The notes beneath the pieces were generated by a model that saw nothing but the letters and a program-made list of their open reading frames with translations, did not search any database and was not told the DNA's origin. A stretch of 43,546 nucleotides of DNA from a virus. Shown here one piece after another: positions 18,095 to 43,546 of the stretch. The position numbers and the translations under genes were made by a program. Position 1 is the stretch's first letter; every line of letters begins with the position of its first letter. The DNA is taken from the IMG/VR virus record IMGVR_UViG_3300020596_000002, positions 1 through 43,546 of that record. The stretch is one strand, 5' to 3'.

Positions 18095-18453
18095 GGTGTA
18101 TCTCCTTTGTCAGGTACTTCTATATTTAATACTGTTACTGCCGTCATAACAAAATTTACTTTAATTCTGGCGGTACCATCTGTGTCATCTCTTGATATCA
18201 GGGTATATTCTATTTTCCTATCATCAACAGGTTTTCCCACTTTCCTATCTCTTTCATTTGTTTGATATTTTGCATTACTTACACCTTTGCGCAAAGTATC
18301 GAATTGATCCTCCGAAAACGTAATTATCACATTATCCACATCTTTCAGTAAGTTATAGATACTTTGGAAAGACATTCTTTCCTTTTTTATTTCCACTGGA
18401 TCATCATCTTCGACATCGATAATGTTTTTGTATTCACCGTCGATAATGTCCAT
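18091..18453 (-). CDS. Hypothetical acidic protein, 120 aa
   Basis: The N-terminus is acidic (DGEYKNIIDVEDDDPVE). The C-terminal half has beta-strand-like repeats (IEYTLISRD, ARIKVNFVMTAVTVLNIEV). I do not recognise a family. The start lies in TAATG, sharing a base with the sigma-factor stop, so the two are likely translated together. A sigma-associated regulator is one possibility, based only on coupling. Confidence 0.65.
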   Translation of the reverse strand: MDIIDGEYKNIIDVEDDDPVEIKKERMSFQSIYNLLKDVDNVIITFSEDQFDTLRKGVSNAKYQTNERDRKVGKPVDDRKIEYTLISRDDTDGTARIKVNFVMTAVTVLNIEVPDKGDTP

Positions 18454-19073
18454 TATATATAATCCTTCACGTTAACTTTCTCTGTTTTCGTCATGCGATA
18501 CTTTATTAATTCGTATGTTGAATTTATTATTTGTTGTACTCTTTGTCGTGATATCCGGTATCGTTCCGCTATCTCATTATGCGTTAGTTCTTCGTAATCA
18601 AATAGTGCATGAGCGTGAAACAATATCTCAAGATGGTGCAGTTTTATGCCATGGCATGCGCAAGATAAGACTTTTTCTATGTCTACTTGCGCCCTATTAA
18701 TATCACCCATGGAATTATCCGGCGGAATAATATCAACGTCGTCGTCACGCTTGTTATCTATGGACAGCATATTAATTGGATATTGCATATCCCTACCATC
18801 AGCCCATGGGTATTCAGATAATTGAAGTTTAGTTAGTTCTCCCCGCATTTTCCAGTAAGCGAAAGTTAGGAATTTATTTTCTAATTCGGGCTTGAATTCC
18901 TTTATTGCCATTAATATGCCTATGTTGCATGCCTGTTTTCTATCTTCCTCCGGAATGATTTTAAAATTAAATGAATTGACTAATTTAAATATCATTCCAC
19001 TGTGGCGTTTTATTAATGCGGCGAGTGCCTGTTCTTTATATTCCGCTATTAATTCTTCGTCTGATATTTTCAT
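18453..19073 (-). CDS. Phage sigma-70-like factor
   Basis: The protein is 206 aa. A region 2-like block spans residues 17-85, with DRKQACNIGILMAIKEF followed by FLTFAYWKMRGEL, the aromatic -10-recognition helix typical of sigma factors. A region 4-like helix-turn-helix lies at about 161-193 (LTHNEIAERYRISRQRVQQII). It should bind host core RNA polymerase and direct it to phage promoters, probably the late rightward unit, since no phage RNA polymerase is seen. ATG 19073 overlaps the helicase stop. The linker (residues 90-135) is shorter than in housekeeping sigma factors. Confidence 0.85.
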   Translation of the reverse strand: MKISDEELIAEYKEQALAALIKRHSGMIFKLVNSFNFKIIPEEDRKQACNIGILMAIKEFKPELENKFLTFAYWKMRGELTKLQLSEYPWADGRDMQYPINMLSIDNKRDDDVDIIPPDNSMGDINRAQVDIEKVLSCACHGIKLHHLEILFHAHALFDYEELTHNEIAERYRISRQRVQQIINSTYELIKYRMTKTEKVNVKDYI

Positions 19074-21352
19074 TCTTCTTCTCCTTCAAGTAATTCTTCG
19101 CTGTTTATAACGATAGTCCAATCATTCATTAATGCGCGTGCTGTTGTTACCCAATTGGGCAACATTGGGCCACTGTAATATTGCTTAGGTTCTTGTTGCA
19201 TTAAACGCATTGCCATTTCCCAATCTTTGCCATGGCCTGTCATATTCACATATCGTGCAGTTATTAAATGGCAAATTTCGTGTATTACAGTTTCATTGCA
19301 GATATATGAATATAATTCGGGCTGTTTTGCGGAAAGATAAATTGGATTCAATTTTATTTGATGATATTTTGGGATAGCTAATCCTATAGTCTTGCCTCGT
19401 TGACAATCAAATGTCAAGCTTGGGTAATCACCTAATACGTCGCCCCATATTCTTTTGGCAGAATCCCAATGTTTTATGAGATTACTTTTTGCCAATTCCT
19501 TTACGTGCAATGGTACATATTTTTGAAAGTCTGTTACGGTACAAGATCTAACTTCAATTTTTTCTGGCATATTTAATGCCGGTTTTTTCTGTTCTATTAT
19601 TATTTCGTCCGGTTCGCCTAAAGGTGCCCATTCACCCGGCTTTATGACTGGATAACTACTCATATCGACAGTAGCTTTAGCGTTAATATGTGCTATTTTT
19701 TCTTCTAACGTCTTGCCACGGATTATTTGATTATCTACTGCTTTTTGTAGTATTTTTTCTGTTGCTATATAACAGATTTTTTCTCTCGCCCTAGTAGTCG
19801 CAGTGTATATCCATTCTCTGGAAACGAAACTACCTTTTGTAGCGTGTTCTTCGTGCAAAAGAATGAATACTTTGCGCCATTCTGATCCTTGCGCTTTGTG
19901 GCAGGTAGTAACGTATCCTAATGAGAATCCTGCGGGACTAAAATCTCCTGCTGTTTGCAATTGATATTCTTCGTCCGGCGTATCTTCTGCTAATTTTTCC
20001 GCATATTTATATGTGATTATTGCACTGGCCTGATTTTTTCTTTCATCATCTGCCACGTCATCGACGTTAATATCGGCATAACCTGTTAATTCCATATGCG
20101 CTTCGATGTCATGATTGGCATCTTTTGATTCTGCTGCACGATAAAATCCAGTTCGCAACAAATTTTCTGATGCGATTTTAGTACTGCGTCCGGCATAACC
20201 CGGATTGTGCATAATATTTGTAATGATGCACAAATTCTTATCTACTAGGATAAGGTCGCCTTTTGCAAGATAAATATTGCGCCTACCTGCAATTATCTCA
20301 TGCACGATCACTTTTCTTTCATCGCCCATAAATTGCGCTATCCAGTTATTCATCGCTTTAGTTCCCATCTCCTGTTCATTCCACGGAGATAAGATAGCGT
20401 CTGTTAATGGATCATAATCGCCTTTTATGTGTCTTTTCTGAAAGAATCCTCCAGCTTTCCCTAATGCCATTCCAGCACGTGATTGTGACATTTTCTTTGT
20501 TTTTACTTCATCCCACCAGATTATTTCAGTGTCTTTATTCTTAACAGGTATTTTACCGTCTAGAATATTCCATGCGTTTTGCAATACGCCAGAATCATCG
20601 GCTTGGCGATATATTTTAGTTAATTCAATCACTGGTAATTGGTGTAATGCAAAATTGAATATGCTTTTCCCAAATACTGGCGGTAATTGATTAATATCAC
20701 CGATGAATATTACGATAGTACCGGGAAGCATTGCAGCATAGAGTTTTTCATATAACAATAAATCGCACATCGGTGCTTCGTCAATATTCAGTATCTTGAA
20801 TGAAAATGGTCTATTCTCATTCCGTGTTTCAACAAACCGCATCTTATTTTTGCCGGTTTCGATATCCTCATAATATTCTGGTTTAAATTCTAGGTGTTTA
20901 TGCAATGTTTGTATGCACGTCGATACTTGCTTAAACAGTTCTGTATCGCGTGCTAAAGCTTTCCGCGTATTGCCTGTTGCTACACGCGTTAGCGCACCGA
21001 TCGCTATATGGCGCGCTGGATGTCCCATATCTAACAGCGCTTTAAAAATTGCTCTCTCAAGCGTTGTTTTACCGGTTCCTGCTGCGCCAGTTATAACAAA
21101 TGACACGCCTTTTTTTACCAGTTCAATTGCTGCTAATTGTGATTTATCCAGCGTTATATTCAAGCTGAATGTTTGTTCTTGTCTTACAGATACATTTTCA
21201 ACAATGGGAATAGGAACAGAGTCTGTGCTTAATTCCTTTTTTTGTTTAAAATCGCTGATAATTCCTAACCGCTCTCGGATAGGAATATTGCGCCAATCGG
21301 CACTCTCTTGCAGCGCCTTTAAATCTGGGTACTTTATTGCCAAGTTATGCAC
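19070..21352 (-). CDS. SF1 helicase (RecD/Pif1-like) fused to SprT-like metalloprotease
   Basis: The protein is 760 aa. Helicase motifs: Walker A GAAGTGKTT (89-97, K95), Walker B NIDEAP (D191, E192), GDINQLPP (218-225), LTKIYRQ (244-250), TTCHKAQGSEW (482-492) and TATTRAREK (517-525). From about residue 625 a SprT-like domain follows, with HEICH (691-695) and GHGKDW (H707), the zinc ligands of SprT/Spartan proteases. Spartan enzymes degrade proteins crosslinked to DNA, and Pif1/RecD helicases translocate on single-stranded DNA. The fusion could unfold and digest roadblocks ahead of replication. GTG 21352 is the likely start (AAAGGA about 8 bases upstream). Confidence 0.9.
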   Translation of the reverse strand: MHNLAIKYPDLKALQESADWRNIPIRERLGIISDFKQKKELSTDSVPIPIVENVSVRQEQTFSLNITLDKSQLAAIELVKKGVSFVITGAAGTGKTTLERAIFKALLDMGHPARHIAIGALTRVATGNTRKALARDTELFKQVSTCIQTLHKHLEFKPEYYEDIETGKNKMRFVETRNENRPFSFKILNIDEAPMCDLLLYEKLYAAMLPGTIVIFIGDINQLPPVFGKSIFNFALHQLPVIELTKIYRQADDSGVLQNAWNILDGKIPVKNKDTEIIWWDEVKTKKMSQSRAGMALGKAGGFFQKRHIKGDYDPLTDAILSPWNEQEMGTKAMNNWIAQFMGDERKVIVHEIIAGRRNIYLAKGDLILVDKNLCIITNIMHNPGYAGRSTKIASENLLRTGFYRAAESKDANHDIEAHMELTGYADINVDDVADDERKNQASAIITYKYAEKLAEDTPDEEYQLQTAGDFSPAGFSLGYVTTCHKAQGSEWRKVFILLHEEHATKGSFVSREWIYTATTRAREKICYIATEKILQKAVDNQIIRGKTLEEKIAHINAKATVDMSSYPVIKPGEWAPLGEPDEIIIEQKKPALNMPEKIEVRSCTVTDFQKYVPLHVKELAKSNLIKHWDSAKRIWGDVLGDYPSLTFDCQRGKTIGLAIPKYHQIKLNPIYLSAKQPELYSYICNETVIHEICHLITARYVNMTGHGKDWEMAMRLMQQEPKQYYSGPMLPNWVTTARALMNDWTIVINSEELLEGEEE

Positions 21353-22765: not shown

Positions 22766-22990
22766 TCAGGCCTCAACAGAACTATAAACACTGTCGCAAT
22801 AATTGCAATGATTACAATAATAGCAAAGAATGCTATTATTGCACTGCGGGCAATTGCTGTTATTGCATTCATTGCTATTATTGCTATTATTGCAATAACA
22901 GCAATTAATGCAATTATCGCAATTATTGCAATTAATGCAATTAACGCATTCGTCGTTATTTGCTGTTATTGCGAATTTAAATATTTTCAT
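22766..22990 (-). CDS. Cysteine-triplet-repeat protein 1 (degenerate, 74 aa)
   Basis: This is the last of five paralogues in the direction of transcription. It begins MKIFKFAITA like the others but lacks the KGNSSYS..SQ..A leader segment. It then runs into Cys-x-x-Cys repeats (VNC INC NNC DNC INC), several with Ser replacing Cys (NNS) and one phase slip (NCPQC). AAAGAGG precedes ATG 22990, one base after the stop of paralogue 2. Deletion of the leader and loss of Cys suggest decay or a divergent role. Function unknown. Confidence 0.65.
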   Translation of the reverse strand: MKIFKFAITANNDECVNCINCNNCDNCINCCYCNNSNNSNECNNSNCPQCNNSILCYYCNHCNYCDSVYSSVEA

Positions 22991-22991
22991 C

Positions 22992-23384
22992 TTATGCCTC
23001 TTTTTTTAATTCGTAATAATTATTCCGTGTGCTATAATTATTACAATTATAGCAATTATCACATTTATCGCAATCATTACATTGCTCACAGTTATAGCAT
23101 TCTATACAATAATTGCAATTATTGCAATAATAGCAATACCAACAATAATTGCAATTAATACATAAATTAGCATCATCGCAATTGCGACAATTAGTGCATT
23201 GACGACAATTAGTGCAGCAGATACACTTATAACAATGGCGACAATTAATACATTCAATGCAATAACGGCAATTAATACAGCCATTATCATCCAAAAATTG
23301 TGCATTCTTTTCCGCCATGTCTTGCGAAAAATTGGAATAGGAGGAATTGCCTTTTGCTGTGATTGCGGAAGTATAGAGTATCAT
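22992..23384 (-). CDS. Cysteine-triplet-repeat protein 2 (130 aa)
   Basis: ATG 23384 (MILYTSAITAKG) is the start: AAAGGAAA lies upstream, within the stop region of paralogue 3, and the conserved leader begins here. The longer open frame upstream reads antisense-like repeats of the neighbour. After SAITAKGNSSYSNFSQ and LDDNGC there are about 26 triplets of the form x-x-Cys (INC RYC IEC INC RHC), with Asn or an aromatic residue common before Cys. The C-terminus (NNYYELKKEA) leaves the repeat. Strict three-residue phasing suggests a regular rod or solenoid, with metal or disulfide chemistry possible. No known family recognised. Confidence 0.75.
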   Translation of the reverse strand: MILYTSAITAKGNSSYSNFSQDMAEKNAQFLDDNGCINCRYCIECINCRHCYKCICCTNCRQCTNCRNCDDANLCINCNYCWYCYYCNNCNYCIECYNCEQCNDCDKCDNCYNCNNYSTRNNYYELKKEA

Positions 23385-23385
23385 T

Positions 23386-23808
23386 CTATGTTTCCTTTTG
23401 ATTGCAAAATTTACAATAATTGCATTTATCGCATTTGCTGCAAAATTCGCAATAAGTACAATAATGGCAACTACCGCAATAATGGCAAAATTCGCAATAA
23501 TTGCAATTGCCACAATAGGTACAGCTAATGCAATTAGCACAGATTTTGCAATTGTGGCAATAATCACAGTTATCGCAGTCGTCACAATTACGGCAGCAAT
23601 AGCAATTACGGGAATTGTAACAGTTTATGCTATTGGTACAATCTTTGCAATAACTACAACTAGTACAATTAATGCAATTAATGCAATGAATGCAATTGGA
23701 ACAGCCATTATCGTCCAGCACTTTTGCATTAACATCTGCCATTTCCTGTGAAGTGTAGGAATAGGAGGAATTGCCTTTTGCCGTTATTGCGGATCTAAAC
23801 ATTTTCAT
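23386..23808 (-). CDS. Cysteine-triplet-repeat protein 3 (140 aa, longest array)
   Basis: ATG 23808 follows a GGAAAGGAAAGGAA tract. The leader is MFRSAITAKGNSSYSYTSQ, then VLDDNGC. It is followed by 33 consecutive triplets, 31 ending in Cys and two in Ser, with no phase error. The second triplet position shifts from mostly Asn early to mostly Tyr/Phe late (EFC HYC GSC HYC TYC). The stop is followed after one base by the start of paralogue 2, so the two are co-translated. The protein has no other domain. Confidence 0.78.
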   Translation of the reverse strand: MKMFRSAITAKGNSSYSYTSQEMADVNAKVLDDNGCSNCIHCINCINCTSCSYCKDCTNSINCYNSRNCYCCRNCDDCDNCDYCHNCKICANCISCTYCGNCNYCEFCHYCGSCHYCTYCEFCSKCDKCNYCKFCNQKET

Positions 23809-23837
23809 TTCCTTTCCTTTCCTTATTGTACTGCGAA

Positions 23838-23887
23838 TAGTATCTATCCTCATGCCCACATTATTATGGGCATGAGGATAGATACTA
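23838..23887. repeat. 21-bp perfect inverted repeat between paralogues 3 and 4
   Basis: Arms 23838-23858 and 23867-23887 are perfectly complementary around an 8-base loop, with core CCTCATGCCCA / TGGGCATGAGG. The right arm covers the stop codon of paralogue 4. No T-tract follows in the leftward direction, so this is probably an RNA processing, attenuation or stability hairpin, or a DNA-level cruciform. It shares the CATGCCCACA core with the hairpin at 24306-24335. Confidence 0.8.
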
Positions 23888-24166
23888 CGTCATGCAATTG
23901 GTACAATAGTTGCAATTACTACAATTGTGCCTATTATCGCAATTGCTACAATAGGTACAATTGCTACAATAGGCACAATTGTTACAATTGGTGCAATTGG
24001 TGCAATTGGTGCAATTGTAACAACCAATGCAATTGCTACAGTTAATGCAGTCGTGGCAATTAATACAGCCATTATCATCTAGATATTGTGCATTCTTTTC
24101 CGCATCATCTTGAGAGATGAATGAATAGGAGGAATTGCCTTTAATCGTGATTGCGGAAGAGTACAT
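23885..24166 (-). CDS. Cysteine-triplet-repeat protein 4 (93 aa)
   Basis: ATG 24166 (MYSSAITIKG) follows AAAGGAAA. After the leader SAITIKGNSSYSFISQ and LDDNGC come 20 phased triplets, 18 of them with Cys as third residue (INC HDC INC SNC IGC YNC TNC TNC TNC). Asn is the usual residue before Cys, and one triplet has lost its Cys (DNR). Including the leader Cys there are 19 Cys in 93 residues. The protein is secreted-signal-free and so presumably cytoplasmic, where thiols would be reduced and could bind metals. Function unknown. Confidence 0.77.
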   Translation of the reverse strand: MYSSAITIKGNSSYSFISQDDAEKNAQYLDDNGCINCHDCINCSNCIGCYNCTNCTNCTNCNNCAYCSNCTYCSNCDNRHNCSNCNYCTNCMT

Positions 24167-24214
24167 TTTTCGTTTCCTTTGGTTTGGTTGTGAATAGTTT
24201 CGCATCGTCCTATC

Positions 24215-24304
24215 TATTAACTATAATCCAGTCTTTTCGACGATTTCGGCAAATTTTCCGGGATTTTCGCCAATTTCGCCAATTTCCCCGGATTATAGTT
24301 AATA
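24215..24304. repeat. 15-bp inverted repeat enclosing a 60-base structured spacer
   Basis: Arms 24215-24229 (TATTAACTATAATCC) and 24290-24304 are perfect reverse complements. The spacer has tandem TTTCGCCAA copies and several GG/CC patches, so it may fold into a multi-branch RNA. It lies between paralogues 4 and 5 with no gene. A small RNA, a leader or a recombination site is possible. Confidence 0.7.
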
Positions 24305-24305
24305 A

Positions 24306-24335
24306 TCCCATGCCCACAATTGCGCAGGCATGGGA
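24306..24335. repeat. Hairpin related to the one at 23838-23887
   Basis: Arms TCCCATGCC (24306-24314) and GGCATGGGA (24327-24335) surround a 12-base loop. It shares CATGCCCACA in the left arm with the hairpin after paralogue 4. It is followed by a purine-rich tract with tandem GGAGAT (to about 24357). Its position immediately downstream of paralogue 5 suggests that the hairpin duplicated together with the genes. Confidence 0.65.
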
Positions 24336-24358
24336 ATGAGGATGGAGATGGAGATGGG

Positions 24359-24613
24359 CTACTCTGGCTCGTCGCAATTTATTGCATTGCGATATCCTGT
24401 GCGATCGCTGCAATTATCGCAATTGACACACATGATACAATTGCTACAATTGCCGCAATTGTGACAGTAGCGACAATTGCGGCAATTGACACACATGATG
24501 CAGTCCACGCATCCAGCAGCGTCCAGAGCTTCCGCCCTGGCATCTGCCGTCATTTGGGATATGTGGGAAAAAGATGAATTACCTTTTGCTGTGGTCGCTG
24601 AATAATACAACAC
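24359..24613 (-). CDS. Cysteine-triplet-repeat protein 5 (84 aa, first in the leftward unit)
   Basis: GTG 24613 is the likely start: AAAGGAAA lies 5 bases upstream and the leader YYSATTAKGNSSFSHISQ begins here. An in-frame ATG at 24661 has no ribosome site. About 15 triplets follow (VDC IMC VNC RNC RYC HNC GNC SNC IMC VNC DNC), then the array degenerates (SDR TGY RNA INC). It is the first gene after the control region, so it should be among the earliest transcribed genes. It shares leader and array architecture with the four genes downstream. Confidence 0.72.
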   Translation of the reverse strand: MLYYSATTAKGNSSFSHISQMTADARAEALDAAGCVDCIMCVNCRNCRYCHNCGNCSNCIMCVNCDNCSDRTGYRNAINCDEPE

Positions 24614-24700
24614 TTTAATTTCCTTTGGTTTGGCTGTTTGGCTGCGGGTACTGACTCGCATCAGTATGATCGCATTCCGGGCCCATGTCTAGAAAAAAAG

Positions 24701-24720: not shown

Positions 24721-24793
24721 TTTTGTGATCGCAGGCCCATTGTACCGGCCAATCGGTCGGGACGCAAGACAAGCCTATCGGCCGATCGCACGC

Positions 24794-25145
24794 TCGCAGG
24801 GCCGCTCAATCACTCAATCCAGGGGGGCGGAGTAGGTCCCGGGTAGGCCCAAATCCGTTAGCATCCATCAATCAGGGTGATGATGGCTAGATATGCCGTA
24901 AGTGTTTGCAATATCTGATTCATGGGTCGTTGTAGAGAGCAAAATTTAAAAAAAAAAAAACAGAGATATTCTTTCGTGTCAAGCACTTTTTTTTGCTCTG
25001 GACATACTGCGTATACATATACCTGCCATAGCCGTACCCTATCGGGATACTAGTTGGCATAGAGTATCCCGGATTTGGGGCGGGAATCCGGCATGCCTCC
25101 CCCCGTGGATTGGCTGGTTGAACGATCGGTTGAGCGGCCCTGCGA
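24794..25145. repeat. Long-range 16-bp inverted repeat
   Basis: TCGCAGGGCCGCTCAA (24794-24809) is the exact reverse complement of 25130-25145. The two arms bracket about 320 bases of the control region. Related CGCAGG and GGCC(A/G)AT words repeat beside both arms. It could close a large RNA domain or mark the ends of an inserted or invertible segment. Confidence 0.6.
25043..25091. promoter_or_regulatory. Pair of overlapping, mutually exclusive hairpins
   Basis: Hairpin 1 pairs 25043-25051 (CGGGATACT) with 25063-25071. Hairpin 2 pairs 25069-25075 (CCGGATT) with 25085-25091. Bases 25069-25071 belong to both stems, so they cannot form at once. That arrangement is typical of attenuators and switch-like leaders. 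It lies about 300 bases before the rightward first gene. No known riboswitch recognised. Confidence 0.45.
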
Positions 25146-25228
25146 TCCTGCGATTGGCTATGAAAGTGTCGAAATATCGTCACTAGATACTGATTGCTAT
25201 TTCGCCTAGCGATGCAGACCAAAAAATA

Positions 25229-25290: not shown

Positions 25291-25391
25291 GTGTATGGAT
25301 GCTGATGTTTACATATTGCGGATACGCTAACAGTGCCTACCGGACATTGTTAGGGCAATCTGCCCACAACCACAAATCAAAGGAAAACAAA

Positions 25392-26048
25392 ATGAACACA
25401 ATCAATTGGTCTATCGCCAAGGTCGAAGCTAACGTCACCGAAGGGCCGAAAGGCGATAGGAAGCGCGTGAGCGTAGGGTTTTATGATCTTCCCTACGCCA
25501 CCGTGATGGCGTTCAAGGATGCCATCAACAGCGTCAAGGTAGATGTTGACGCCTCCGCAGTATCGGCTGACAACACCGAAGGGATTACGGTGTACAGCAG
25601 TGACAGTCCGCTCGATGCGGACGTCGTTAACTGGTTGCAAAGCGCCATCCTTGCCAAAATTAAGGTCAAGGGTAGCAATCAGCTCGTCACTGGCACAAAC
25701 AAGCTTATGGACGGAAAAGCTTTTGCCATCGATTTCGAGACTCTGCTAGAGTCTGGCGAGCGTGGCGGAGCGCACCAACGCTTGAAGGCTGAAAGCGTTG
25801 TCGCATTCGTCGCATACCTTACGGGGCTTGGCAAGTCTACCCAAGTCGTGGAGGGTTTCCGCGCCATGTTCCGGCAGCCTGCGGATGTGCTCTCGCATCA
25901 GCCTGAGAAATATAAGATGAGAATGCAAGAGTATCTCACGGGCTTTGCGTCTAGCCTCAGCGCGGAAAATGTGGAGCGGTATAAGAAGTTCCTCGTGGCC
26001 GTTGAGGATGCCGCCGCGTCAACTGAGGAAGAAGATATGCTCGCATAG
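25392..26048 (+). CDS. Unknown 218-aa protein, GC-rich codon use
   Basis: ATG 25392 (MNTINWSIAKVEAN) follows AAAGGAAAAC; the open frame to 25299 has no ribosome site. The protein is soluble, mixed alpha/beta. Its C-terminus is acidic (EDAAASTEEEDMLA), and a helical region sits near residues 130-200. I do not recognise a family. Third codon positions are much richer in G and C (GCC, GTC, AAG, CGC) than in any neighbour, so the gene looks recently acquired or kept at host-like codon use for strong early expression. It is the first gene of the rightward unit and is followed by hairpins and iterons. Confidence 0.75.
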   Translation: MNTINWSIAKVEANVTEGPKGDRKRVSVGFYDLPYATVMAFKDAINSVKVDVDASAVSADNTEGITVYSSDSPLDADVVNWLQSAILAKIKVKGSNQLVTGTNKLMDGKAFAIDFETLLESGERGGAHQRLKAESVVAFVAYLTGLGKSTQVVEGFRAMFRQPADVLSHQPEKYKMRMQEYLTGFASSLSAENVERYKKFLVAVEDAAASTEEEDMLA

Positions 26049-26056
26049 GGAGATGC

Positions 26057-26089
26057 GCTGGCACGCGGTAGATGTTATCGCGTGCCAGC
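26057..26089. terminator. 11-bp perfect hairpin after the first rightward gene
   Basis: Arms GCTGGCACGCG (26057-26067) and CGCGTGCCAGC (26079-26089) enclose an 11-base loop, 8 bases after the stop codon. A very stable stem suggests termination or mRNA 3' protection, but no T-tract follows; the next bases enter another hairpin that shares 26086-26089. Confidence 0.55.
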
Positions 26090-26133
26090 ATATGCTAATA
26101 TATGCTGGATGTTGCGTATATTAGCATATGCTG
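26086..26133. repeat. 20-bp near-perfect inverted repeat
   Basis: CAGCATATGCTAATATATGC (26086-26105) pairs with 26114-26133 with one mismatch around an 8-base loop. Inside each arm AGCATATGCT is itself palindromic. It overlaps the right arm of the preceding hairpin by four bases, so the two RNA folds compete. It borders the iteron field and is followed by an A-run (26141-26148). It could be a protein-binding palindrome at an origin or packaging site. Confidence 0.65.
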
Positions 26134-26154
26134 ATGTAGGAAAAAAAATTTAAA

Positions 26155-26530
26155 ACCTTAAAGTGAAGTACGATAAAATCAAAAACTTAAACCTTTAAGT
26201 GAAGTACGATAAAATCAAAAACTTAAAACCTTAAAGCTTAAGTGAAGTACGATAAAATCAAAAACTTAAACCTTTAAGTGAAGTACGATAAGATCAAAAG
26301 CTTTAAATACGATAAGGTCAAAAACATAAATGTTAAGATCAAAAGCTTTAAATACGATAAGGTCAAAAACATAAATGTTAAGATCAAAAACTTAAAACCT
26401 TAAAATCAAAAACTTAAAACCTTTGAGTGAAGTACGATAAAATCAAAAACTTAAAACCTTAAAGCTTAAGTGAAGTACGATAAGATCAAGATCAAGATCA
26501 AAAGCTCAAGTGAAGTACGAAAGATCAAAA
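26155..26530. repeat. Iteron-like repeat field upstream of terminase
   Basis: The 12-mer AGTGAAGTACGA occurs seven times in the same orientation, starting at 26162, 26198, 26241, 26277, 26426, 26469 and 26509. Each is followed by ATAAAATCAAAAACTTAAA or a close variant, except the last, which is truncated. Between copies 4 and 5 lies a two-copy tandem of about 45 bases built on TACGATAAGGTCAAAAAC. The field is non-coding and almost devoid of G/C apart from the repeats. Such arrays are seen at replication origins and at terminase-binding (pac/cos) sites; adjacency to the terminase genes favours packaging, but neither is proven. Confidence 0.8.
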
Positions 26531-26532
26531 CC

Positions 26533-26566
26533 AAAAGCACTATGTAGTGGGGGTAGTAGCTTTTTT
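26533..26566 (+). terminator. Possible rho-independent terminator before terminase
   Basis: AAAAGCACTA (from 26533) can pair with TAGTAGCTTTT (26554-26564) with one bulge, followed by a T-run to 26566. The G-rich loop (GTGGGGGTAG) is unusual. It would separate transcription of the early gene at 25392 from the terminase operon. Confidence 0.4.
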
Positions 26567-26626
26567 AAATCGTAAAACCTAGGGCCTATCAATAACCAAT
26601 ACTGAATTTTTCTAATTTTTTTTTTC

Positions 26627-26698
26627 ATATCCCCATATCCCCATATCCATATCTCTCTCCATATCTCTCTATCCATATCCCCATGTCTTTCTGTTTCT
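26627..26698. repeat. Pyrimidine-rich CATATCC tract upstream of terminase small subunit
   Basis: About 70 bases consist of CATATCC(CC) and CATATCTCTC units on the top strand, almost free of G. The repeat ends 14 bases before ATG 26712. Antisense it reads as an artificial Trp/Ile-rich ORF, which is not a gene. It may be a protein-binding or unwinding element belonging to the packaging or late promoter region. Confidence 0.55.
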
Positions 26699-26711
26699 AA
26701 AAGGTAATCCC

Positions 26712-27230
26712 ATGGATCAACTAGCAATAGCCAAATACCTAGCACAAGGACTTTCGCAGGTACAAGTTGCGTCTATAATGGGATGCACTCCAAGCTATAT
26801 TAGCCAGCTAGTGGAGCAAGAAAATGTCAAAGAATTAATCCTCTTTGAGCAAAAAAGAATAGAAATAGAAAAAGAGGACGCGGTACAAGAATATAAATAC
26901 ACTTCTTTGGAAAAGAAGGCACAAGATTACTTGGAAGATCAAATGCCCTTCGCAGAATATAAGGATGTTTTGAAGCTTCTTGAGATATTAAACCGCAGAA
27001 AAGAAAAACCAGCACCACAGATAATAAATAATACCCAAATCAATGTGACAAAATTATCTATTCCAGCTGCTGCGATGCCAGAATTCACAGTAAATGCGCA
27101 GAATGAAGTAATTGGAATAGGAGAAAAGAGTTTAGCCCCTATGAGCAGCGCAGGGGTTAAAGAGATGTTCTCAAATATGAGAAAAAAAGAAGAAATAGCT
27201 GACGTTCAAGCTATTTTAAATCTAAAATGA
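26712..27230 (+). CDS. terS: Terminase small subunit (putative)
   Basis: The 172-aa protein has an N-terminal helix-turn-helix (about residues 10-35: LAQGLSQVQVASIMGCTPSYISQL), followed by a charged helical segment (EKEDAVQEYKYTSLEKKAQDYLED). The C-terminus is less ordered. This domain order is typical of phage small terminases, which bind packaging sites as rings. The ATGA overlap with the large subunit gene and the iteron field upstream support the call. Sequence identity to known families cannot be judged here. Confidence 0.8.
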   Translation: MDQLAIAKYLAQGLSQVQVASIMGCTPSYISQLVEQENVKELILFEQKRIEIEKEDAVQEYKYTSLEKKAQDYLEDQMPFAEYKDVLKLLEILNRRKEKPAPQIINNTQINVTKLSIPAAAMPEFTVNAQNEVIGIGEKSLAPMSSAGVKEMFSNMRKKEEIADVQAILNLK

Positions 27231-28702
27231 CAGAACAAATAATACACGATTTAGGCGTAGATATTGATTCTGCGAAGGAACGGGCAAAGATTGATTTTAA
27301 TTTCTTTGCTGGCCTTTGCCTGACCACACAATTCCTATTTCAATTCCCCAGATATTATGTCGCGTTATTCTTTTTCTTAACACAAGCAACATCCGCTAGC
27401 CAATTCAGCTCAATAATAAGATTAGCCCTTGGCCTTCCTCGTGGCTTTGCCAAAACAACATTCCTAAAGATTGTCATGGTTTGGCTGATAGTACACGATA
27501 AATTCTCCTTCTTTGTTGTGTGCTGTGCTACTGAAGATCGTGCGCAGAACTTCATAGCAGACGTAATGAGTATGCTGTGCTCTGATAATATTAAAGGACT
27601 CTATGGTGATTATAGTAAGAAGCTCATAGAGGACAATAAGACCACTAAACAGGCACACTACAGGGGACGCATGGTAATGTTAGTCGCTATAGGCGCTGGA
27701 AGTAATATTCGTGGCATTAATATAGCTAATACTCGCCCTGATTTCCTTCTTTGTGACGACGCACAAACAGCAGAGAATGCTAAAAATCCTACATTATCGC
27801 AGGAACTATTAGAATGGTTCACTGGTACGTTCTTTAAGATAGTCTCACCATTTAAAGCTATGATTTGTTTTGTGGGGAATATGACGGAAACAAGTTGTGT
27901 GCTTTATAAATTAAAAGAGCACCCTGATTGGAAGAGTCTTATCACTGGGTGTATATTAGAGAATGGAGAAAGTCTTTGGCCAGAATTACATCCTGTAGAG
28001 GCGCTTATTAATGGCTATTTCCACGATGAAAAGTTAGGTGAAGGAGATACTTGGTTTGCTGAGATGATGAATGACCCAATAGCAAAGAGCGATGCGCTCC
28101 TTATTGGGCCATTACCTATTCAACGCTTTGACTATGCTATAGAACCAGAGGCCGCATTCGTTACACTTGATCCTGCTGGCTTTAAAGATGGTGCAGATGA
28201 GAATGTGCTTACTGGGCATCAAGTACTTAATAACAAATTTTTTATTGCTGAAATGGACGGTGGTAAATATGATCCAGGAGAATGTGTTAGACGTGGAATT
28301 TCAATGCTGGTTAGATTACAGGGGAATCTTCTGGGCGTAGAATCAGTCGCCTATCAATCCACATTTGCGTATTGGTTTAATTATCTATGTGAACAACAGC
28401 ATATCTCTGGCATTAGTGCCATAGCATTGCCCATTCCGCACATAGCGAAAGAAAAACGTATTAGAGCGTTTGTAAAGGAAATGTATGCAGGGGAATATTC
28501 TTTCCTAAGGGATGTCGATCGCCAAAAGTTTACTTGGCAGGCTCAGATGTTTCGCTCAGGAAAGAAGAAGAATAAAGACGATTGGCTTGATTCCCCTGCA
28601 TTGGGTTTAGTTGTACGCAACCAATTTAGGCATTTGCTTAAGCTTAGAAAAGAGGCTGGCACTAAATCCGCTGGTGTGCAAACAAACAACACACCATTTT
28701 AA
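27227..28702 (+). CDS. terL: Terminase large subunit
   Basis: The 491-aa packaging motor has ATPase Walker A GLPRGFAKTT (69-78, K77) and Walker B FLLCDDAQ (D177, D178). Most relatives have Asp-Glu at the second pair, so the second Asp stands where catalytic Glu is usual. The nuclease domain begins near VTLDPAG (D315), with further acidic residues in KDDWLDS (451-456) that could complete the RNase H-like site. It cuts genomes and drives DNA into the prohead through the portal. The stop codon lies inside the first unit of a 20-bp tandem repeat. Confidence 0.92.
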   Translation: MTEQIIHDLGVDIDSAKERAKIDFNFFAGLCLTTQFLFQFPRYYVALFFFLTQATSASQFSSIIRLALGLPRGFAKTTFLKIVMVWLIVHDKFSFFVVCCATEDRAQNFIADVMSMLCSDNIKGLYGDYSKKLIEDNKTTKQAHYRGRMVMLVAIGAGSNIRGINIANTRPDFLLCDDAQTAENAKNPTLSQELLEWFTGTFFKIVSPFKAMICFVGNMTETSCVLYKLKEHPDWKSLITGCILENGESLWPELHPVEALINGYFHDEKLGEGDTWFAEMMNDPIAKSDALLIGPLPIQRFDYAIEPEAAFVTLDPAGFKDGADENVLTGHQVLNNKFFIAEMDGGKYDPGECVRRGISMLVRLQGNLLGVESVAYQSTFAYWFNYLCEQQHISGISAIALPIPHIAKEKRIRAFVKEMYAGEYSFLRDVDRQKFTWQAQMFRSGKKKNKDDWLDSPALGLVVRNQFRHLLKLRKEAGTKSAGVQTNNTPF

Positions 28703-28760
28703 TAAACAACACACCATTTTAATAAACAACACACCATTTTAATAAACAACACACCATTCT
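28681..28760. repeat. Four-copy 20-bp tandem repeat at the terL-portal junction
   Basis: The unit AATAAACAACACACCATTTT occurs four times in a row; the first copy begins AACAA and the last ends ATTCT. The first copy encodes the C-terminal Thr-Pro-Phe and stop of terL. The copies after the stop keep repeating that tail and are not coding. The portal ribosome site AGGAG follows directly. Slippage expansion is likely. Confidence 0.9.
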
Positions 28761-43344: not shown

Positions 43345-43546
43345 ATGGCTGATAATTCAAAAGTGTCGCGGGTAGGAAACACATTCACTAATATGGATGA
43401 CGTCCTTACAAATTTAATCACAGGCAGCACTATAACTAATATGCCGCAGGTTCCAGCTGAGATAGAAAGCGGTACAGGCTTCTTTACTAATACCCGTACA
43501 GGAAATGTAACAGCGGTAGGAACTCCGAGTAAGAAAACATTAGCTC
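43345..43546 (+). CDS. Internal virion/ejection protein, N-terminal part (continues at 1..1551)
   Basis: ATG 43345 (MADNSKVSRVGNTFTN) follows GAGGATAAAACAAA. The frame runs off the window end and continues in the same frame from position 1, because position 43420 equals position 1. The full gene is 541 codons. See the entry at 1..1551 for the body of the protein. Confidence 0.9.
   Translation, partial: MADNSKVSRVGNTFTNMDDVLTNLITGSTITNMPQVPAEIESGTGFFTNTRTGNVTAVGTPSKKTLA
43420..43546. repeat. Terminal direct repeat, right copy
   Basis: This is an exact copy of bases 1-127. It is the second copy of the assembly overlap or terminal repeat described at 1-127. Confidence 0.9.

Follow-up and report, generated by a model that had tools for sequence, protein, structure and literature searches.

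Lambda-type cos sites are built as cosQ-cosN-cosB, where terminase cleaves upstream of terS, the gene of the small terminase, and the R sites of lambda are on the same side of the cut as terS. In some phages, the small terminase (TerS) binds repeats near cleavage sites. Several direct repeats in AT-rich DNA are also found in replication origins of the iteron type, which occur in plasmids and phages.

Within the group of podoviruses considered here, the study of Polaromonas phage Tiera used PhageTerm to locate genome ends, and its annotation was made on the genome as rearranged (PMC9959647). The accessible text of that paper reports direct terminal repeats for the other two phages of the study and none for Tiera, and it does not state the terminus type of Tiera, so that the start of the Tiera record serves as indirect evidence of a genome end. 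For Shea, which is PaP2-like, "terminally redundant ends" have been reported (PMC13348215).

The window analyzed here is the whole 43,546-nucleotide IMG/VR record IMGVR_UViG_3300020596_000002. A preliminary description had proposed that the non-coding DNA upstream of its terminase genes (26057-26700) forms a composite packaging or origin site. We assign a probability of about 0.65 to a different reading, in which the interval consists of three unrelated things in a row: a post-stop hairpin, a private palindrome followed by a minisatellite, and a family-wide packaging site.

The phage and its relatives

The record closes circularly through a 128-bp terminal overlap (1-128 = 43419-43546) and is therefore probably a complete phage genome of ~43.4 kb. 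Its gene set includes the large terminase TerL, portal, capsid, DNA polymerase A, primase, RecD/Dda-like helicase, and Sak4-like genes, which place it in a group of podoviruses that includes Tiera, EBPR podovirus 3, and Jamesmcgillvirus (PaMx41 and PaP2; Fredfastierviridae). TerL identity to these relatives is ∼39–47%, with 39% to Jamesmcgillvirus, where the gene order is similar. The homologous terminase module and the gene order thus suggest that the phage is related to Fredfastierviridae (Tiera, PaMx41, PaP2). At the DNA level, no match to the window was found in the phage collection, and a search for relatives in bacterial genomes returned a single distant match in a MAG. One contig (L008) encodes an identical TerL but begins inside terL, which leaves the repeat block outside its span.

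The non-coding interval is bounded on the left by an open reading frame at 25299-26048 and on the right by terS (26712-27230, plus strand), which encodes an N-terminal helix-turn-helix (PHROG 16503, E 2e-16; leave-one-out profile, E 7e-42) and is followed by terL (27227-28702, plus strand; PHROG 38, E 6e-52). Several features elsewhere were recorded in passing. At the end of terL, 28684-28758 holds 3.8 perfect copies of AAACAACACACCATTTTAAT, and because this unit encodes the conserved C terminus NNTPF plus the stop, the terL tail has been duplicated into the gap between terL and portal. On the minus strand lie a sigma factor gene (18453-19073; PHROG 351, E 8e-16), a gene in which a SprT-like C-terminal domain is fused to the RecD/Dda-like helicase (19070-21352), and an array of small paralogous Cys-rich proteins (22766-24661) with a three-residue Cys repeat (CINCxxCINC...) and a common N-terminal segment, ITAKGNSSYS...LDDNGC (PHROG 15341, no assigned function). 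Two inverted repeats of 29 nt (24781-24809 and 25130-25158; 90% complementary) bracket ∼320 bp of GC-richer DNA in a divergent intergenic region and are possibly MITE-like. In Tiera, a non-coding divergent region (L029:43391-44172) contains an ∼70-bp tandem duplication (AGTATCCGGTGGGCGCG...) and is a possible control or origin region.

A family-wide element upstream of terS

When the DNA upstream of terS was aligned among relatives, a conserved order emerged: a G- or C-rich box, ∼8 nt, CTTTTTT, ∼22 nt often with GCGCG, TATCAATAG, ∼10 nt, and AAATTTTCCTAAA(G/C)TTTT. In the window, this element occupies 26546-26625 on the plus strand and comprises a G5 box (26549-26553), CTTTTTT (26560-26566), the core TATCAATA (26588-26595), and then ATTTTTCTAATTTT; its right half is among the more diverged copies. 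A profile of the element recovered 55 distinct versions, every one on the terS strand, a count that takes profile E values up to 0.5 and includes some weak matches. In leave-one-out tests, a profile built without the window gave one significant match in it (26546-26623, E 5e-4), and there was a match across the junction of the Tiera record (E 1.6e-4). Exact-pattern scans that were independent of the terminase found 12 profile-positive loci, each adjoining a TerS of this family; as most of their contigs were already in the TerL set, these loci speak for specificity rather than for new members. We found no paper describing the ∼80-bp element.

The break of the deposited Tiera record falls at TATCAA|TAGGCC, within the element core, and the equivalent position in the window predicts a terminase cut after 26593. 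No terminal repeat was found in the Tiera record. Because a direct terminal repeat was neither found there nor reported for Tiera in the accessible text of its description, a cos or pac end is favored over a direct terminal repeat. Given the terminally redundant ends of Shea, the group may include more than one type of end, or the type may be headful. The deposited PaMx41 and PaP2 records begin elsewhere, about 2 kb from the element, and contain no terminal repeats that we could find. Five contigs end 23–85 nt upstream of the predicted cut, compared with a density of about 0.8 contig ends per 100 nt in the 3 kb that follow. These contig ends lend weak support to a genome end at this place and, near the T-run, may instead be assembly breaks.

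The best reading of 26546-26625 is therefore a terminase recognition and cleavage site, cos- or pac-like, with a predicted end after 26593. Of the alternatives to this reading, we considered a conserved late-operon transcription signal, terminator plus promoter, which we regard as unlikely. It draws on the true hairpin that precedes the T-run in several relatives (e.g. L021 and L024) and on the sigma factor encoded by the phage, whose late promoters might therefore be atypical. However, the T-run comes after the G5 box in PaMx41, Tiera, L009, and the window, and the possible terminator of the preliminary description (26540-26567) was rejected in the window, as it has no GC-rich stem plus T-run by rule and folds weakly at this place (z −1.3); what it marks is the family-wide element. 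In relatives, inspection by eye shows a further promoter-like sequence that lies after the element and before terS (e.g. TTGACA...TATAAT in L024), so that a simple terS promoter does not account for the element, and the end of Tiera falls in the element core. A search for a sigma-70-like promoter just upstream of terS in the window found none.

Between the element and terS lies a C/T-rich tract (26626-26684, plus strand) with four exact copies of CATATCC, as previously noted. These are possible TerS-binding repeats. The motif was rejected as a late-promoter motif, because its other four copies are scattered through the genome (435, 8753, 13132, and 18786).

The post-stop hairpin and the upstream gene

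The hairpin at the left edge of the interval, described earlier as 11 bp, is real: its arms (26057-26070 and 26076-26089, plus strand) are 14 nt long and 93% complementary, with an RNA fold of −27.3 kcal/mol (z −6.3). Its context is the putative gene at 25299-26048 (plus strand; 249 amino acids as opened), homologues of which occupy the equivalent place in 10 relatives (leave-one-out profile, E 4e-34). Homology begins near residue 30, and the true start may be further in. The protein had no match in Pfam or PHROG, its predicted structure is of low confidence (mean pLDDT 62.6), and a search for relatives through this protein alone confirmed none. A clear stem lies within ∼45 nt of the stop of this gene in 9 of the 10 relatives (z −1.9 to −5.7), with a weaker stem in Tiera (z −1.1). 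Because the stem keeps its position after a homologous gene while the sequences are unrelated, we read 26057-26089 as probably an mRNA 3′-end stabilizing or processing stem of the upstream gene. It is thus a hairpin kept in position within the upstream gene family rather than a piece of a composite site.

The palindrome and the repeat block

The 20-bp palindromic inverted repeat (26086-26133) was also found as described. Its arms (26086-26105 and 26114-26133; 20 nt, 95% complementary; fold −32.1 kcal/mol, z −8.1) flank 8 nt; the inverted repeat contains two AGCATATGCT palindromes and shares 4 nt with the 3′ arm of the hairpin. The inverted repeat is absent from the relatives examined. AGCATATGCT was rejected as a genome-wide operator, as the genome has no further exact copies.

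The "iterons" that follow are an AT-rich (74%) minisatellite on the plus strand (26144-26540), with about nine degenerate copies of an ∼36-bp unit. All seven AGTGAAGTACGA 12-mers were confirmed exactly, on the plus strand at 26162, 26198, 26241, 26277, 26426, 26469, and 26509 (spacings 36, 43, 36, 149, 43, and 40), and AGTGAAGTACGA occurs nowhere else in the whole record; across 500 Markov shuffles of the interval, no 12-mer reached more than five copies. The true repeat unit is nevertheless ∼36–37 bp, not 12 (TRF period 36, 8.5 copies, 26144-26464). TACGA is common to nine units, two of which (26308 and 26353) lack the AGTGAAG half, the 5′ part of the 12-mer. The 45-bp sub-repeat reported before is present as two perfect copies (starts 26289 and 26334) and belongs to a set of nested tandem duplications, of 45 bp (100% identical) and 79 bp (93%), a pattern typical of recent local amplification. 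A coding repeat was rejected, because every one of the six reading frames of the block is interrupted by stops; the repeats do lie in non-coding DNA upstream of terS and terL. As stated earlier, the spacing of the 12-mers follows no constant helical phase, and no 10.5-bp A-tract phasing indicative of bent DNA was found in the block.

The array was absent from the flanks of 47 relatives, and iteron scans of four collections (viral contigs, genome contigs, phages, and plasmids) found none. The preliminary description had held that absence from close relatives would count against its proposal; the iterons are missing from all relatives searched, but with TerL identities of up to 47% these are not close, so that the result weakens the proposal but falls short of refuting it. 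In relatives, the same slot holds small open reading frames (e.g. L012, L015, L021, and L024–L027) or is nearly missing (Tiera and L022). Most likely, the minisatellite is lineage-specific, grew by tandem duplication, and is tolerated in a slot without essential content.

The 12-mer is invariant in seven copies while the flanks vary (longest invariant run, p about 1.5e-4 compared with random placement), a test biased in that the copies were chosen by that 12-mer and the flanks shift by small indels. This invariance hints at constraint on the iterons. The block could be a phage-specific cis module that acts as an origin or enhances packaging and that was amplified recently next to the conserved packaging site, but comparison with relatives lends this no positive support and we give it only a small chance. 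If it were true, this lineage would couple replication initiation or terminase loading to its genome end.

Taken specifically as a replication origin, with the AGTGAAGTACGA repeats bound by an initiator that melts AT-rich DNA beside the packaging site, the block is a somewhat poorer candidate still. Its direct repeats lie in 26% GC DNA at one locus in the genome, the 12-mer does not vary, and the cumulative GC skew has its minimum nearby, at about 24–27 kb, although the skew tracks gene direction. Against this, no initiator was found among the genes tested (several small open reading frames match nothing), the relatives without iterons share the replication genes, two units are without half of the 12-mer, and the spacing is not helical. 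We thus found no positive evidence for the origin that had been proposed in this interval.

Slighter again is the chance that the terminase binds the iterons as R-site- or pac-like repeats, which would work with the cut element in this phage. The array does end 73 bp from the predicted cut, and repeats bound near cleavage sites have their precedents. It is located, however, opposite to the side of the lambda R sites, a position that only the CATATCC tract fits. The recognition segment of the TerS helix-turn-helix is CTPSYISQL in this phage, CTPAYISQL in L009, and VSPSYISQ in PaMx41 and Tiera, and these three relatives have the element but not the iterons despite the similar segments, which makes a dependence of TerS on the iterons unlikely. 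Least probable is a partial assembly artifact with wrong copy number or order, because, even though this is an IMG/VR contig with identical 45-bp copies and no second contig spanning the block, the units differ from one another and the flanking genes are intact, which makes the block genuine DNA, although the number of copies may be wrong.

Discussion

Comparison with relatives separates the elements of the proposed composite site. On the sequence evidence, a candidate packaging-type site very probably does lie in the interval, at 26546-26625, and this part of the proposal stands, with versions of the site throughout the relatives and with the Tiera record ending at it. The hairpin and the iterons, by contrast, are not pieces of a shared site. 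The case for the element is made by its conservation, position, and orientation and by its coincidence with the deposited end of Tiera.

In the mechanism that we propose, TerS, which keeps its helix-turn-helix across the family, would bind in or beside the element. TerL would then cut concatemeric DNA within the TATCAATA core, as predicted after 26593. The rightward DNA, with terS, terL, and portal, would presumably enter the capsid first, and a genome end, inferred to be of cos or pac type, would be left behind.

A recognizable ∼80-bp candidate packaging site across a divergent podovirus group would make genome ends predictable for many uncultivated phages. Binding and cleavage by the terminase could also be assayed on this precisely defined sequence in members that can be cultured, such as Tiera and PaMx41. 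Further, striking repeats next to terminase genes are not necessarily a packaging signal, and comparison with relatives tells the two apart.

Compared with iteron-type origins, the block in the window likewise has multiple direct repeats in AT-rich DNA, but it is without a recognized linked initiator, its spacing is irregular, and it is not conserved in relatives. The likeness of the element to a lambda-type cos is one of position, without any claim of sequence similarity: in both, a short conserved site lies just upstream of the small terminase gene, and it is where virion DNA ends in lambda and, going by the Tiera record, may end in this group. Cohesive ends and TerS-binding repeats are features of lambda, and the iterons of the window lie on the side away from terS. 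PaMx41 and PaP2 likewise have the element upstream of terS in a similar gene order, with a TerL only 39% identical and with different DNA upstream of the element. Tiera (OQ067478) lacks both the slot and the iterons but has the same element in the same place, together with a homologous TerS, TerL, and upstream gene.
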